A stretch of 64,000 nucleotides of DNA from Parafrankia discariae (GTDB lineage: Bacteria; Actinomycetota; Actinomycetes; Frankiales; Frankiaceae), in assembly GCF_000373365.1 (NCBI RefSeq), contig NZ_KB891103.1, forward strand, positions 119,474 through 183,473, given 5' to 3'. The translations under genes and the position numbers were made by a program. Every line of letters starts with the position of its first letter. The stretch's first letter is position 1. The notes under the pieces were generated by a model, which did no database searches, was not told the origin of the DNA, and saw only the letters and a list, made by a program, of their open reading frames with translations. Below, piece after piece: positions 45,811 to 49,698 of this stretch.

Positions 45811-46059
45811 CTAGCCCCCGACGCCGGCGGCGCGGCGACGGCCGGCCCGGGTCCGCCGCGGGTCCGGGCTGCCGGCGTCGGGGAACCGGCGCAGGTACTC
45901 CCGCTCCAGTTCCAGCATCCGCTGGGTGTGGGTCTCGAAGGCGTCCTCGCTCCCGGCCAGGAACGTGTCGTGCCTGGTCAGGTGCAGATGCCGGACTTCA
46001 CGGACGAGGTCGGAGTCGGAGAGCTCGGGCGCGGGAATTCCCTCGGGGCGGTGGCTCAT
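45811..46059 (-). CDS. DUF6158 family small protein
   Basis: The 82-residue protein starts MSHRPEGIPAPELSDSDLVR, with REVRHLHLTRHDTFLAGSED and THTQRMLELEREYLRRFPDA. This is a helical actinobacterial family I recall as DUF6158, of unknown role. The C-terminal tail is Arg/Gly-rich. ATG 46059. It is convergent with the phosphoribosyltransferase gene and 54 bp from the end of the proline-rich gene on the same strand. Confidence 0.82.
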   Translation of the reverse strand: MSHRPEGIPAPELSDSDLVREVRHLHLTRHDTFLAGSEDAFETHTQRMLELEREYLRRFPDAGSPDPRRTRAGRRRAAGVGG

Positions 46060-46113: not shown

Positions 46114-46374
46114 TCACGCCGGGGCACCACCGGGCAGCAGATCAGGCCCCGGCACCGGCGGGACGGGGTCGGGCACCGGACCGGGCGGGACGGGATCCGG
46201 GTCGGGAGCGGGCGGCACCGGATCCGGACCCGGACCCGGCGGCACCGGATCCGGGCCCGGGCCGGGGGGCACCGGATCGGGAATCGGGCTGGGCGGGACG
46301 GGATCGGGCCCCGGGCCGGGCGGCGTCACCGCGACGTCCCCGCTGGCGATCGACTCCACGTTCCTGATCAACAT
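46114..46374 (-). CDS. Proline-rich nonapeptide-repeat protein
   Basis: The 86-residue protein begins MLIRNVESIASGDVAVTPPG, then has six 9-residue units of the form PDPVPPxPx (residues 23-76) and ends [17 protein letters not shown] lies 8 bases before ATG 46374, so this start is well supported; the longer frame to 46482 is not. There is no signal peptide. The repeats would form an extended polyproline rod, possibly binding an SH3-like or WW-like partner or the ribosome. I do not recognise a family. Confidence 0.65.
   Translation of the reverse strand: MLIRNVESIASGDVAVTPPGPGPDPVPPSPIPDPVPPGPGPDPVPPGPGPDPVPPAPDPDPVPPGPVPDPVPPVPGPDLLPGGAPA
46147..46308 (-). repeat. 27-bp tandem repeat (6 units)
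   Basis: Six contiguous 27-bp units encode PDPVPP plus three variable residues each. The units differ mainly at the variable codons, so the array is not freshly duplicated. Confidence 0.9.
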
Positions 46375-46734
46375 GGCCGGAACCTCCTCGTCGCCGGGTG
46401 CCCCGGACCCGCTCGCCGCGCGCCCGACGCCTGGTGATCTCTCTCGTCGCCTACCCGCGTCACCGCGGAGCACACCCCCCACCCGGCTTTCCCCGAACCC
46501 GCCCGGTCGCGCCCTGACGTCGGACGGCCACGCCGAGCGGTCACCGACCTCCCGGGCGGGACGCGCCCGGCGGCGCGTGGGCGGCCGTCGCTACGATTCC
46601 CGGAATACTTCGGCCATCTCCGGACAACTCATCTTGATCAACAGGTCGGACACCCGACCGGCGGTGAGGGATCACCTCTGTCCGGTGACGTGGTCCGGTG
46701 ACGTAGGCCTGCGACGTCGACGGGGAGGGTGCCG
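46375..46734. other. Gene-free stretch before the Hsp70-WD40 gene
   Basis: There is no supported gene. The 5' part is the upstream region of the proline-rich gene. Near 46597-46660 there is a relatively AT-rich stretch that could hold a promoter. A 13-bp direct repeat (46680-46705) lies just before the Hsp70-WD40 start. Confidence 0.6.
46680..46705 (+). promoter_or_regulatory. Tandem 13-bp direct repeat upstream of the Hsp70-WD40 gene
   Basis: GTCCGGTGACGTG and GTCCGGTGACGTA are adjacent (46680-46692, 46693-46705), 29 bp before the start. They may be a regulator site or a slippage product. Confidence 0.35.
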
Positions 46735-49077
46735 GTGGTGGAGCCGATCCTCGCGATCGACTACGGCACCTACAGCGCGTCCGCGGCGCTGGTCGTCGAC
46801 GGCAAGGTGGCCACGGTCCGGGAGCCCGCGAGCGGCGCCGCCGGCTGGCCGGCCTCCGTCTTCGCCGACGGCGAGATTCTGGTGGTCGGCACCCTCGCCG
46901 AGCGCCGCAAGCGGATCTGGCCCGCGGCCTACCGCGGTGGGGTCAAACGCGACCTGACCAGGAACACCGCCATCGCCCTGGACGGCCGGGCCCACCAGCC
47001 GGCCGCGCTGGTCACCGCGGTTCTGGCGGCGCTGCGCGCCGAGGCCGAGGTCCAGCTCGCCGGGGAGGCGCTGCACCGGGCGGTCGTGACCGTACCGGCC
47101 AGCTACGACCCGGCCGGGCCGCTGCGGCGGACGATGATCCGGGCCGCCGAGGAGGCCGGCTTCGTCGACGTCGACCTGCTCGCCGAACCGGTCGCCGCCG
47201 CCTGGGCGCCGATGGGCCCCGCCGGCCCGCAGCCCGGCAACCTCGTCCTCGTCTACGACCTCGGCGGCGGGACGTTCGAGGCGTCCCTGATCGTGGTCGG
47301 CGAGGACGGCCGGCACGAGCTGCTCGGGCACGCCGGCCTGCACGACTGCGGCGGGCGCGACTTCGACCAGCTGCTGTTCGACGAGATCCTCGGCCACTAC
47401 GGGCCGGGCCTCGAACCACTGCTCAACCCGACCGGCGTCGGCGAGGTGTTCCAGACCGCCGCCAGCCGGACCCGCCACGAGCTGCTGGACTTCGCCCGCG
47501 CGGTGAAGCACCAGCTCACCGACGTCGCCTTCGTCGAGGACGTCTTCAGCCCCGCCGGCCTGCTGGTCAGCCTGGAGCGGGACCGGTTCGACAAGCTCGC
47601 CTCACCGACCCTGGCCCGGACGATGGCCTGCTGCCAGCACCTGCTGGAGAGCACCGGCATCAGCCCGGAGCAGCTCGACGGGGTGCTGCCGGTCGGCGGC
47701 TCGTCGCGGATGCCGGTGGTCACCGAGATCCTCGCCGGCCGGCTCGGGGTGGGCACCGACTGGCCGCACCAGCACGTGTTCACCGCCCCGGAGCCGGACC
47801 AGGCCGTCGTGCTCGGCGCGGCCTCCTGGGCGGCGACGGTCTCGACCCGGCGCACCGTCGCCGCGCGGCCCGACCCGGTGGTACGCCCGGCCCGCTGGGA
47901 CATTCCCGGCGGGCGGGCCACGATGGTCCGCTGGCTCGTCGAGCCCGGTGCCCGCTTCGACGCCGGGGCGGTGCTCGCCCGGGTCCGGCTGACCGACGGC
48001 GCGCTGTTCGACCTGGCCGCCGAGGGTCCGGGCAGCCTCGTCGAGACCCACGCCGAGCCGGGTTCGGTGGTGCGCGACGTCGACTGGCTGGCCACCACGC
48101 TGCCGTCCGGCCCGGCGCCGGCCGGTTCGGCCCGCCCCGCCGACCTGCGCGGGTTCGAGCGCAGCAACCGGCCGTCCCGCAACGTCGAGGTCACCACACG
48201 GGTGACGCTGACCGGCCACGAACGCGACGTCACCTCGGCCGCGTTCTCCCCCGACGGCCGGCTGCTCGCCACCACCAGCCGGGACGGCGCCCGGCTGTGG
48301 GACACCACGACCGGGCGCACCGTCGGCCGGCTGAGCGGACGCAGAATCTCCGCCGTGCACGGCTGCGCGTTCTCCCCGGACGGCGACCTGCTCGCGACCA
48401 CCGGCAGCGACAAGACCGCCCGGATCTGGGAGATCGCCACCGAGCGGCTGACCCTGACCCTCACCGGCCACAAGGGCCCCGTCTACGGCTGCGCGTTCTC
48501 CCCCGACGGCCGGCTGCTCGCCACGGTCAGCACGGACCGGACGGTCAAGCTGTGGGGGGTCTCGACCGGGACCAACATCGCCACACTGACCGGGCACCGC
48601 GGCTCGGTGTACGGGTGCGCGTTCTCCCCGGACGGCCGGCTGCTCGTCACCGCGGGCGCCGAGTCGACCCTGCTCTGGGACGTCACCGTCGGCGAGACGA
48701 TCACCAGTCTGGCCGGGCACACCAACTTCGCGAACGGCTGCTCGTTCTCCCCCGACGGCCTGCTGCTGGCCACGACCAGCAACGACGGCACCCGCCTCAC
48801 CGACACCCCGACCGGGACGACCACGCTCACCCTGCCCGGCTCGGCGCAGAGCTGCGCGTTCTCCCCGGACGGCGTCCTGCTGGCGACGGCGAGCACCGAC
48901 GACACCGCCCGGCTGTGGGACGTCGCCACCGGGACGGCGGTGGCGACGCTGACCGGCCACAGCAGCACCGTCATGGCCTGCGCGTTCGCGCCCTACGGCC
49001 TGCTACTGGCCACCACCAGCACGGACAAGACCGCCCGCCTGTGGGACATCACCTACACGCCGGACGCGGCGCGCTGA
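46735..49077 (+). CDS. Hsp70-like ATPase fused to biotinyl/lipoyl-like and WD40 propeller domains
   Basis: The protein is 780 residues long. Residues 1 to about 370 form an Hsp70/actin-type ATPase: phosphate-1 IDYGTYSASAAL (Asp9), then DLGGGTFEASL (175-185, Glu where Hsp70 has Asp) and adenosine loop VGGSSRMPVV. There is no Hsp70 substrate domain. Instead, about 396-455 (WLVEPGARFDAGAVLARVRL, PGSVVRDVDWLATT) resembles a biotinyl/lipoyl swivel without a lysine. About 490-775 are seven WD40 repeats with the recurring CAFSPDGRLLATTS core, making one full propeller. GTG 46735 is chosen because GGAGG lies 6 bases before. It probably couples ATP-driven shape change to partner binding on the propeller; the target is unknown. 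Confidence 0.85.
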   Translation: MVEPILAIDYGTYSASAALVVDGKVATVREPASGAAGWPASVFADGEILVVGTLAERRKRIWPAAYRGGVKRDLTRNTAIALDGRAHQPAALVTAVLAALRAEAEVQLAGEALHRAVVTVPASYDPAGPLRRTMIRAAEEAGFVDVDLLAEPVAAAWAPMGPAGPQPGNLVLVYDLGGGTFEASLIVVGEDGRHELLGHAGLHDCGGRDFDQLLFDEILGHYGPGLEPLLNPTGVGEVFQTAASRTRHELLDFARAVKHQLTDVAFVEDVFSPAGLLVSLERDRFDKLASPTLARTMACCQHLLESTGISPEQLDGVLPVGGSSRMPVVTEILAGRLGVGTDWPHQHVFTAPEPDQAVVLGAASWAATVSTRRTVAARPDPVVRPARWDIPGGRATMVRWLVEPGARFDAGAVLARVRLTDGALFDLAAEGPGSLVETHAEPGSVVRDVDWLATTLPSGPAPAGSARPADLRGFERSNRPSRNVEVTTRVTLTGHERDVTSAAFSPDGRLLATTSRDGARLWDTTTGRTVGRLSGRRISAVHGCAFSPDGDLLATTGSDKTARIWEIATERLTLTLTGHKGPVYGCAFSPDGRLLATVSTDRTVKLWGVSTGTNIATLTGHRGSVYGCAFSPDGRLLVTAGAESTLLWDVTVGETITSLAGHTNFANGCSFSPDGLLLATTSNDGTRLTDTPTGTTTLTLPGSAQSCAFSPDGVLLATASTDDTARLWDVATGTAVATLTGHSSTVMACAFAPYGLLLATTSTDKTARLWDITYTPDAAR

Positions 49078-49188
49078 CCGGGCCGCGGGCCCGGATCTCA
49101 CGCATCCGATGACCTGGGGTTTTACTCACGATCATCCGGATATAGCCTCCCCTCGGCGGTTTTGGCCCGAGGTTGTGGAGGAACAGGC

Positions 49189-49698
49189 GTGTTCGGGTGG
49201 CGGAAGGTCGTCAGTAGTGGTCGCGGTGTCGTCGAGCCCCCGACGCGGCTGATCACTCCGGGGCTGCGGGGCTTCAAGCAGTTCCTGATGCGGGGCAACA
49301 TCGTCGACCTGGCCATCGCGGTGGTCGTCGGCACGGCGTTCACGGCCGTCGTCCAGTCGCTGGTGAAGAACATCTTCACGCCGTTGATCGCCGCGATCGG
49401 CGGCGAGCCGGACTTCTCCAGCCTGACGTTCACCATCAACGACAGCAAGTTCAACTACGGAACGTTCCTCAACGATGTGATCACGTTCATCGTGGTCGCC
49501 GCGGTGATCTACTTCGTGATCGTCCTGCCGCTCGCCAAGGCGAACGAGATGCGCCGGCGCGGCGAGGAGCCGGAACCCAAGGAGGAGCCGGTGATCAGCG
49601 ACGAGGCCCGACTGCTCACCGAGATCCGCGACCTGCTCGCGGCGAACGGCCACCCCGCCGCCGTGCCGCTGGTCGCTCAGCCGCCGCAGAACAGCTGA
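49189..49698 (+). CDS. mscL: Large-conductance mechanosensitive channel MscL
   Basis: The 169-residue protein has the MscL signature GLRGFKQFLMRGNIVDLAIA, VVVGTAFTAVVQSLV (pore helix), NIFTPLIAAIGG, the second helix VITFIVVAAVIYFVIVLPLA and the C-terminal bundle DEARLLTEIRDLLA. It forms a pentameric channel that opens under membrane tension to release solutes. An N-terminal extension of about 25 residues makes it longer than the usual 130-150. GTG 49189 follows GGAGGAA at good distance. It is 111 bp downstream of the Hsp70-WD40 gene on the same strand. Confidence 0.96.
   Translation: MFGWRKVVSSGRGVVEPPTRLITPGLRGFKQFLMRGNIVDLAIAVVVGTAFTAVVQSLVKNIFTPLIAAIGGEPDFSSLTFTINDSKFNYGTFLNDVITFIVVAAVIYFVIVLPLAKANEMRRRGEEPEPKEEPVISDEARLLTEIRDLLAANGHPAAVPLVAQPPQNS

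Follow-up and report, generated by a model that had tools for sequence, protein, structure and literature searches.

The window analysed here is a stretch of 64,000 nucleotides from contig NZ_KB891103.1 of Parafrankia discariae, and all positions given below are those of the whole stretch. The gene under study lies on its + strand at 46735-49077 and encodes a protein of 780 amino acids, in which an Hsp70-type nucleotide-binding domain (NBD), a lipoyl-fold module without acceptor lysine and a WD40 propeller are joined in one chain. A sequence-only reading of this DNA had described an Hsp70 ATPase core without peptide-binding domain, then a swivel module without modifiable lysine, then seven WD40 repeats. 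The order of the three domains is borne out by Pfam, by alignment to DnaK and by predicted folds; the lack of a peptide-binding domain by a Pfam HSP70 match which ends at profile position 377 of 599; the module by structure prediction, in which it folds as a swivel domain of the lipoyl/biotinyl type, with Gly422 in 21 of 21 sequences; and the repeats by seven Pfam stretches and a seven-bladed model. A survey of this domain order found it only in the Frankia, Parafrankia and Pseudofrankia groups and turned up no characterised family in the literature searched.

The features of the gene are as follows; here and below, counts of residue conservation refer to 21 sequences, namely this protein and 20 full-length orthologues.

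46735-49077, + strand: whole gene, 780 amino acids, GTG start, stop codon included (open frame; 20 full-length orthologues with a common N-terminus; third-position GC 0.97)
46744-47847, + strand: Hsp70-type NBD, residues 4-371 (Pfam HSP70, E 1.6e-35; DnaK chain, E 4.7e-37)
46756-46770, + strand: phosphate-1 motif IDYGT, residues 8-12, with DnaK D8 and T11 kept (D and T in 21/21; DnaK alignment)
46900-46902, + strand: Glu56 at the place of DnaK K70, a gamma-phosphate sensor (HMMER and MAFFT alignments; Glu in 21/21)
47173-47193, + strand: DLLAEPV, residues 147-153, with DnaK R167, N170 and T173 replaced and E171 kept (D147, A150 and E151 in 21/21)
47257-47280, + strand: phosphate-2 motif DLGGGTFE, residues 175-182 (D175 and T180 in 21/21; residue 182 Glu in 16, Asp in 5)
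47884-48102, + strand: lipoyl/biotinyl-fold module without acceptor lysine, residues 384-456 (predicted fold; Biotin_lipoyl matches in 13/21)
47992-48000, + strand: TDG turn, residues 420-422, with Gly422 at the lysine position (Gly in 21/21; profile alignment to E2 lipoyl domains)
48103-48183, + strand: variable linker, residues 457-483 (mean pairwise identity 0.65 versus 0.78-0.83 for the domains)
48184-49059, + strand: seven-bladed WD40 propeller, residues 484-775 (seven WD40 stretches; predicted model)
45811-46059, - strand: DUF6158 gene, an upstream landmark which is not proposed as a partner (Pfam PF19655, E 4.8e-28)

An alternative in-frame GTG is present at 46729, two codons upstream of 46735, and the N-terminus common to the protein and its 20 orthologues begins at 46735.

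The nucleotide-binding domain and the DnaK switch

Pfam HSP70 matches residues 77-371, and DnaK chains of the PDB align to residues 4-367. Because the Pfam match ends at profile position 377, the protein contains no peptide-binding domain: the NBD carries both phosphate motifs, SBD-beta and the lid are absent, and the lipoyl-fold module and the propeller follow the NBD instead. The NBD is 32-35% identical to three Hsp70-type open reading frames (ORFs) of the same genome, including its own DnaK. Residues were assigned by a HMMER alignment to DnaK and a MAFFT alignment to the genome's own DnaK; DnaK E267 and K270, which were placed differently by the two alignments, were not used.

The nucleotide contacts D8, T11, E171, D194, T199 and GG (DnaK numbering) are kept in all 21 sequences. 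By the same alignments, K70, the linker-docking residues and the VLLLD linker of DnaK are invariantly lost. The K70 position is Glu (Glu56) in 21/21, the N170 position is Ala in 21/21, and the T173 position (residue 153) is Val in 18 sequences and Leu in three. The R167 position, which we take to have a part in J-protein binding, is Asp in 21/21. No VLLLD interdomain linker aligns in the family; in five family rows, columns 389-391 hold A, A and R, and column 393 holds D, N or S. According to a passage of PMC12406271, T11 and K70 of DnaK are gamma-phosphate sensors, linker residue D393 contacts N170 and T173 in the ATP state, these contacts and the VLLL linker are needed for signal transmission, and allostery is disabled by K70 replacements without polar groups or by a changed linker (PMC12406271). 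With K70, N170/T173 and the linker replaced or missing, the earlier description of the protein as ATP-gated is not sustained. The suggestion that a change of Asp to Glu in DLGGGTFE may alter hydrolysis also fails as a statement about the family, and the change is rejected as a key trait, because the last residue of this motif is Glu in 16 sequences and Asp in the remaining five (L029-L033).

Other NBDs without K70 occur in the same genome. Contig C124 carries three ORFs that combine an Hsp70 NBD with a propeller (L009 7945-10227 and 10209-12638; L010 4242-6365; all on the - strand), one propeller being of PQQ type and two of WD40 type. These ORFs lie near a pair of dynamin-like GTPases (L009 13282-17475, + strand), of which one matches the PADLOC models LeoA and LeoBC (best E 4.9e-23) and the other LeoA only. 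At E 1e-50, 5 of 148 class genomes, among them this one, have NBDs of the C124 type. A further ORF of 1021 amino acids (L014 5955-9017, + strand) consists of a divergent Hsp70 NBD with Glu at the K70 position and a PBP-like domain, and has a hydrophobic segment which by eye resembles a membrane span.

In a table of 23 NBD rows, the K70 column holds K or R in 12/12 DnaK-type and other rows, E in 5/5 family rows, and A or L in 5/5 rows of the C124 type, three of which, from this genome, have a propeller within the ORF; the single Hsp70-PBP fusion holds E. The gamma-phosphate lysine is thus lost repeatedly where the NBD has another output. NBD trees place the family and the C124 proteins, whose common origin is no more than a possibility, each on a long branch, with only a very short branch between the two (support 87/93, later tree); the earlier tree was poorly trimmed, several rows running past the NBD, and own_C118PBP was left out of the later one. 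L121, L122, L123 and L127 were left out of the table and both trees.

Lipoyl-fold module and propeller

In this protein Pfam Biotin_lipoyl gives a weak match (E 0.15-0.22; 0.15 with residues 376-486 alone), which at 12.3 bits against PF00364 is below the curated cut-off of 22.1. Biotin_lipoyl is matched by 13 of the 21 family members at E up to 10 (best E 0.014), and any other family by at most five. The module was folded alone with AlphaFold2 from the 21-row alignment A2 (model m24f3372f98cb), giving block means of the predicted local distance difference test (pLDDT) of 73-89 over residues 386-445 and 56 over residues 446-455. This model resembles the ODP2 lipoyl domain (9a5h; Z 11.5, rmsd 1.4, 76 residues), the PDH lipoyl domain (3crk; Z 10.2) and biotin carboxyl carrier protein (5gua; Z 10.2), the top two PDB rows being integrative models and not crystal structures. 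It also resembles HlyD (Z 9.9), presumably a relative of the lipoyl/biotinyl fold that bears no modification, and Foldseek gives E 5.4e-5 for the lipoyl/biotinyl fold. The predicted fold plus the weak profile matches thus point to a barrel-sandwich (lipoyl/biotinyl) fold. Lipoyl and biotinyl domains are not separable by structure in this case, because most PDB matches are tied within 1 Z.

In sequence, the module leans to the E2 lipoyl domains. The data do not support an origin from the neighbouring pyruvate carboxylase: on the biotinyl domain of that enzyme the best-domain score of the family profile is 0.4 bits, versus 16.9-18.6 bits on four lipoyl proteins of other genomes, a comparison which is biased, as these four were chosen because they matched the family profile. 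All four have Pfam Biotin_lipoyl, and three also have E3-binding and 2-oxo-acid dehydrogenase acyltransferase domains. A less biased comparison is the profile search of 393 class genomes, in which the sole match outside the family (in genome G297; E 4.8e-6) is, on our reading, an E2 acyltransferase whose TDKA is intact. The stretch (I/V)VRWLVE.GE is common to the module and the E2 proteins.

The alignment shows a module without acceptor lysine. At the hairpin tip, the lysine position is Gly422 in 21/21, within (T/S/A)-D-G; we take lipoyl domains to have DKA at this turn and biotinyl domains MKM. Residues 376-460 hold no lysine in 20 of 21 sequences, and the exception, L031, has one lysine at another place in the module; as family proteins hold 8-15 lysines each, freedom from lysine would by itself be weak evidence. 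Mean pairwise identity is nonetheless highest in the module (0.825), followed by the propeller (0.803), the NBD (0.784) and the linker between module and propeller (0.649). In 4/4 pairs the module has a lower dN/dS than either of the other two domains, and whole-gene values in these four pairs are 0.10-0.42; the values are rough, dS being compressed by extreme GC. Such a best-kept domain without its chemistry is most simply explained as a binding or coupling surface.

For the propeller, Pfam WD40 matches seven stretches, and in the model seven repeats close one propeller. The full-length AlphaFold2 model has a mean pLDDT of 59.8 and is confident only in the propeller (residues 484-774), where block means are 62-95 and mostly at least 84. 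The propeller model gives Z 47.0 to 7big (rmsd 1.0, 280 residues), 46.8 to 2ymu and 45.7 to the WD40 domain of PkwA; a fold search with the full-length model was filled by propellers and was uninformative on the NBD. The blades average 54% identity to each other within the protein, and across species the best match of each blade is the blade at the same position in 35/35 tests (seven blades, five species pairs). Each blade has thus remained distinct from the others, which is what a conserved binding surface would demand, and the propeller is plausible as the recognition part.

Distribution and gene neighbourhood

Among the 78 loci listed in a scan of relatives (22 of 102 relatives stand outside this list), 20 are full-length orthologues, all recorded as Frankia, Parafrankia or Pseudofrankia; the other 58 match one part only, mostly WD40. 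We equate g1 with the Parafrankia group, g2 with the Frankia group and g7 with the Pseudofrankia group; all three are known for root-nodule symbiosis. With the module as query, one strong match is present in each of the 27/27 genomes of these groups and in 0/8 of the remaining genomes of the family. In three of these eight genomes, weak matches (best E 8e-5 to 8e-4) occur at four places, which are the four lipoyl proteins described above; G031 also has a weak second place. Profile A2 matches 28 of 393 class genomes at E 1e-5, namely the 27 genomes and G297. A search of the eight gene-lacking genomes with the NBD gave nothing above 110 bits, and the same query gives 590-822 bits on this protein and four orthologues (with another program, matched stretches summed). 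The gene is single-copy and vertically inherited in the Frankia lineage; as all searched genomes of the three groups have it, it arose in, or entered, their common ancestor.

The literature searched, including passages of PMC7159879, PMC4611139, PMC12406271 and PMC10520049, gave no description of the order NBD, lipoyl-fold module, WD40. The one passage of PMC10520049 that names WD-40 includes FRAAL3899, with a TPR-domain annotation, which need not be this gene (PMC10520049). Each domain is thus known, and the domain order is undescribed as far as the literature was searched and lineage-restricted in the collections searched.

The DUF6158 gene is located upstream on the opposite strand in 14/14 orthologue loci with more than 6 kb of upstream DNA, six others being too short. 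It was dropped as a dedicated partner because it occurs in genomes without the gene: it is present in 47 of 148 class genomes and in 5/5 genomes of group g6, which lack the gene. Between DUF6158 and the gene, a small Pro-rich frame with (PDPVPPGPG)n repeats lies at 46114-46482 (- strand), and similar Pro-rich repeats are found upstream of the gene in four further Parafrankia-group, three Pseudofrankia-group and four checked Frankia loci. Directly downstream, at 49162-49698 (+ strand), is mscL (E 9.1e-38). Besides the window, mscL adjoins the gene in four Parafrankia-group loci out of the 20 of the orthologues, and it does not adjoin it in the other 16 as far as their sequence extends; being limited to Parafrankia-group loci, it was dropped as a functional neighbour.

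Pyruvate carboxylase, recognised by its Pfam domains, is found downstream of the gene in all three genus groups. In 8/8 Pseudofrankia-group (g7) genomes it adjoins the gene on the same strand (e.g., L029 3181-6627, + strand), and in 10 of the 19 g1 and g2 genomes it lies about 8-22 kb off on the opposite strand, the two genes being on different contigs in the other nine. It is thus within about 22 kb of the gene in all 18 of the 27 genomes that have both on one contig. In the P. discariae genome it is located at C2:184992-188384 (- strand), about 1.5 kb beyond the right end of the window. Pyruvate carboxylase is also present in 5/5 g6 genomes, without the gene. In the two g6 loci compared, no other neighbour has a clear counterpart at the loci that carry the gene (the remaining matches are 31-36% identical), and the compared Frankia loci stop short of pyruvate carboxylase. 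This neighbourhood is to be taken as vertical synteny in the first place, and does no more than hint that the gene and pyruvate carboxylase are functionally linked. No GTPase, GrpE or effector gene is present among the ten window proteins scanned with Pfam, and none was recognised by eye among the neighbours of the orthologues, most clusters of which were not scanned.

Possible roles and comparison with known systems

The most likely reading of the protein is that of a nucleotide-stabilised docking scaffold, not an ATP-gated machine of the DnaK style; the probability of this reading is put at about 0.5. Judging from its motifs, the NBD would bind ATP or ADP, which would act chiefly as a structural clamp; hydrolysis would be slow or absent, and no J-protein would drive a cycle. 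The lipoyl-fold module would take the position of SBD-beta in the chain without serving as a swinging arm, and might pack on the NBD, serving as a rigid connector that docks or couples NBD and propeller. Alternatively, the module could bind a partner through the face with which lipoyl domains meet their enzymes. The propeller would bind a partner which is probably fixed, because the identity of the blades is kept position by position. The state of the nucleotide may tune stability or assembly of the protein rather than a chaperone cycle.

Several points weigh against the docking scaffold. Arg57, Arg58 and Lys59 adjoin Glu56 and are highly conserved (Arg57 in 20/21, one being unread; Arg58 and Lys59 in 21/21), and could supply the charge missing at the K70 position. 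An acidic residue would probably be unable to serve as K70, but Glu is polar, and the passage of PMC12406271 concerns replacements without polar groups (PMC12406271). The NBD part of the AlphaFold2 model is of low confidence, so that the assignment of K70 to Glu comes from sequence alignment only. The conserved D8, E171, D194 and T199 would allow hydrolysis, and the dN/dS values are rough.

A second possibility is that the scaffold is ATP-gated: by binding and hydrolysing ATP, the NBD would shift the propeller in the way that the NBD of DnaK shifts its peptide-binding domain, with the module as a relay. The nucleotide contacts are kept, the module directly follows the NBD at the place of SBD-beta, and basic residues follow Glu56. 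Nevertheless, K70, N170, T173 and R167 are all replaced and the VLLLD linker does not align, and in DnaK a non-polar replacement of K70 or a change of the linker disables allostery (passage of PMC12406271). Gating of this type is therefore considered unlikely.

The likeness of the module to E2 lipoyl domains, together with its standing as the most constrained domain even without its lysine, could also mean that it is a decoy: a pseudo-lipoyl domain that docks an E1 or E3 component, a ligase or pyruvate carboxylase, while NBD and propeller regulate or localise the enzyme. The pyruvate carboxylase gene found downstream in all three genus groups would fit this idea. In the Frankia and Parafrankia groups, however, that gene is distant and oppositely oriented in the 10 of 19 genomes noted above, the family profile scores only 0.4 bits on the biotinyl domain of the enzyme, and the neighbourhood may be plain vertical synteny; a decoy function is accordingly given a small chance. 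A still more specific and speculative picture, slightly less probable again, is that a dead lipoyl domain with a WD40 receptor replaced the peptide-binding domain of an Hsp70. Reused as an output module for docking proteins, and fixed in the Frankia lineage, the lipoyl fold would recruit or retain, depending on the nucleotide, a metabolic enzyme that handles lipoyl or biotin, for which the pyruvate carboxylase encoded nearby might be a candidate.

By analogy, the protein might be a sensor of conflict or stress, comparable to the NTPase-propeller threshold proteins and to the HSP70s without peptide-binding domain of the GAP1-N2 systems. HSP70-domain-only proteins are reported in a subset of GAP1-N2 conflict-system neighbourhoods (passage of PMC7159879), and the C124 Hsp70-propeller proteins of the same genome adjoin dynamin-like GTPases. 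However, the gene is single-copy, fixed and under purifying selection, no effector is found among the ten Pfam-scanned window proteins, no PADLOC model is matched at E 1e-5, and the passage of PMC7159879 makes no mention of a lipoyl module (PMC7159879), which together leave a sensor role with slender odds. That the protein is a true chaperone, a partner of DnaJ and GrpE with the propeller in place of the peptide-binding domain, is scarcely credible despite its Hsp70 ancestry, as N170 is changed to Ala and R167 to Asp in 21/21, and no J-protein or GrpE gene, for which no search was made, was recognised by eye among the nearby called genes.

On the docking-scaffold reading, an Hsp70 NBD has lost its coupling to the DnaK switch and serves another output. 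The acceptor-less lipoyl fold is the best conserved of the three domains. As a fixed single-copy gene of three genus groups, the gene provides a defined target for asking what Hsp70 NBDs without peptide-binding domain do, and it poses the question of why a lipoyl domain without its lysine stays under strong constraint.

Compared with DnaK and other Hsp70s (PF00012), the family shares the NBD motifs and nucleotide contacts, but lacks the peptide-binding domain and the VLLLD linker, and has Glu for K70 and replacements at N170 and T173. With E2 lipoyl domains (PF00364), the module shares the predicted barrel-sandwich fold (Z 10.2-11.5 over 75-80 residues at 1.4-2.6 A); it differs in having Gly for the acceptor lysine and no attached acyltransferase, and in scoring below the Pfam cut-off. 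The WD40 domain of PkwA (5yzv) is similar in blade number and fold, with 41% identity over 285 residues, but is attached to a protein kinase there and to an Hsp70 NBD and a pseudo-lipoyl module here. The C124 Hsp70-propeller proteins likewise have an NBD followed by a propeller and have also lost K70; unlike the family, they show no lipoyl module, form a three-copy cluster with dynamin-like GTPases, and have NBDs on a separate long branch. The HSP70s of GAP1-N2 systems, which are mostly found in actinobacteria and firmicutes, likewise have an NBD without peptide-binding domain, but their gene context differs, and neither propeller nor lipoyl module is mentioned in the passage describing them (PMC7159879). 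Because the defining features of both were tested and are lacking, the family is neither an Hsp70 chaperone nor a lipoyl carrier.

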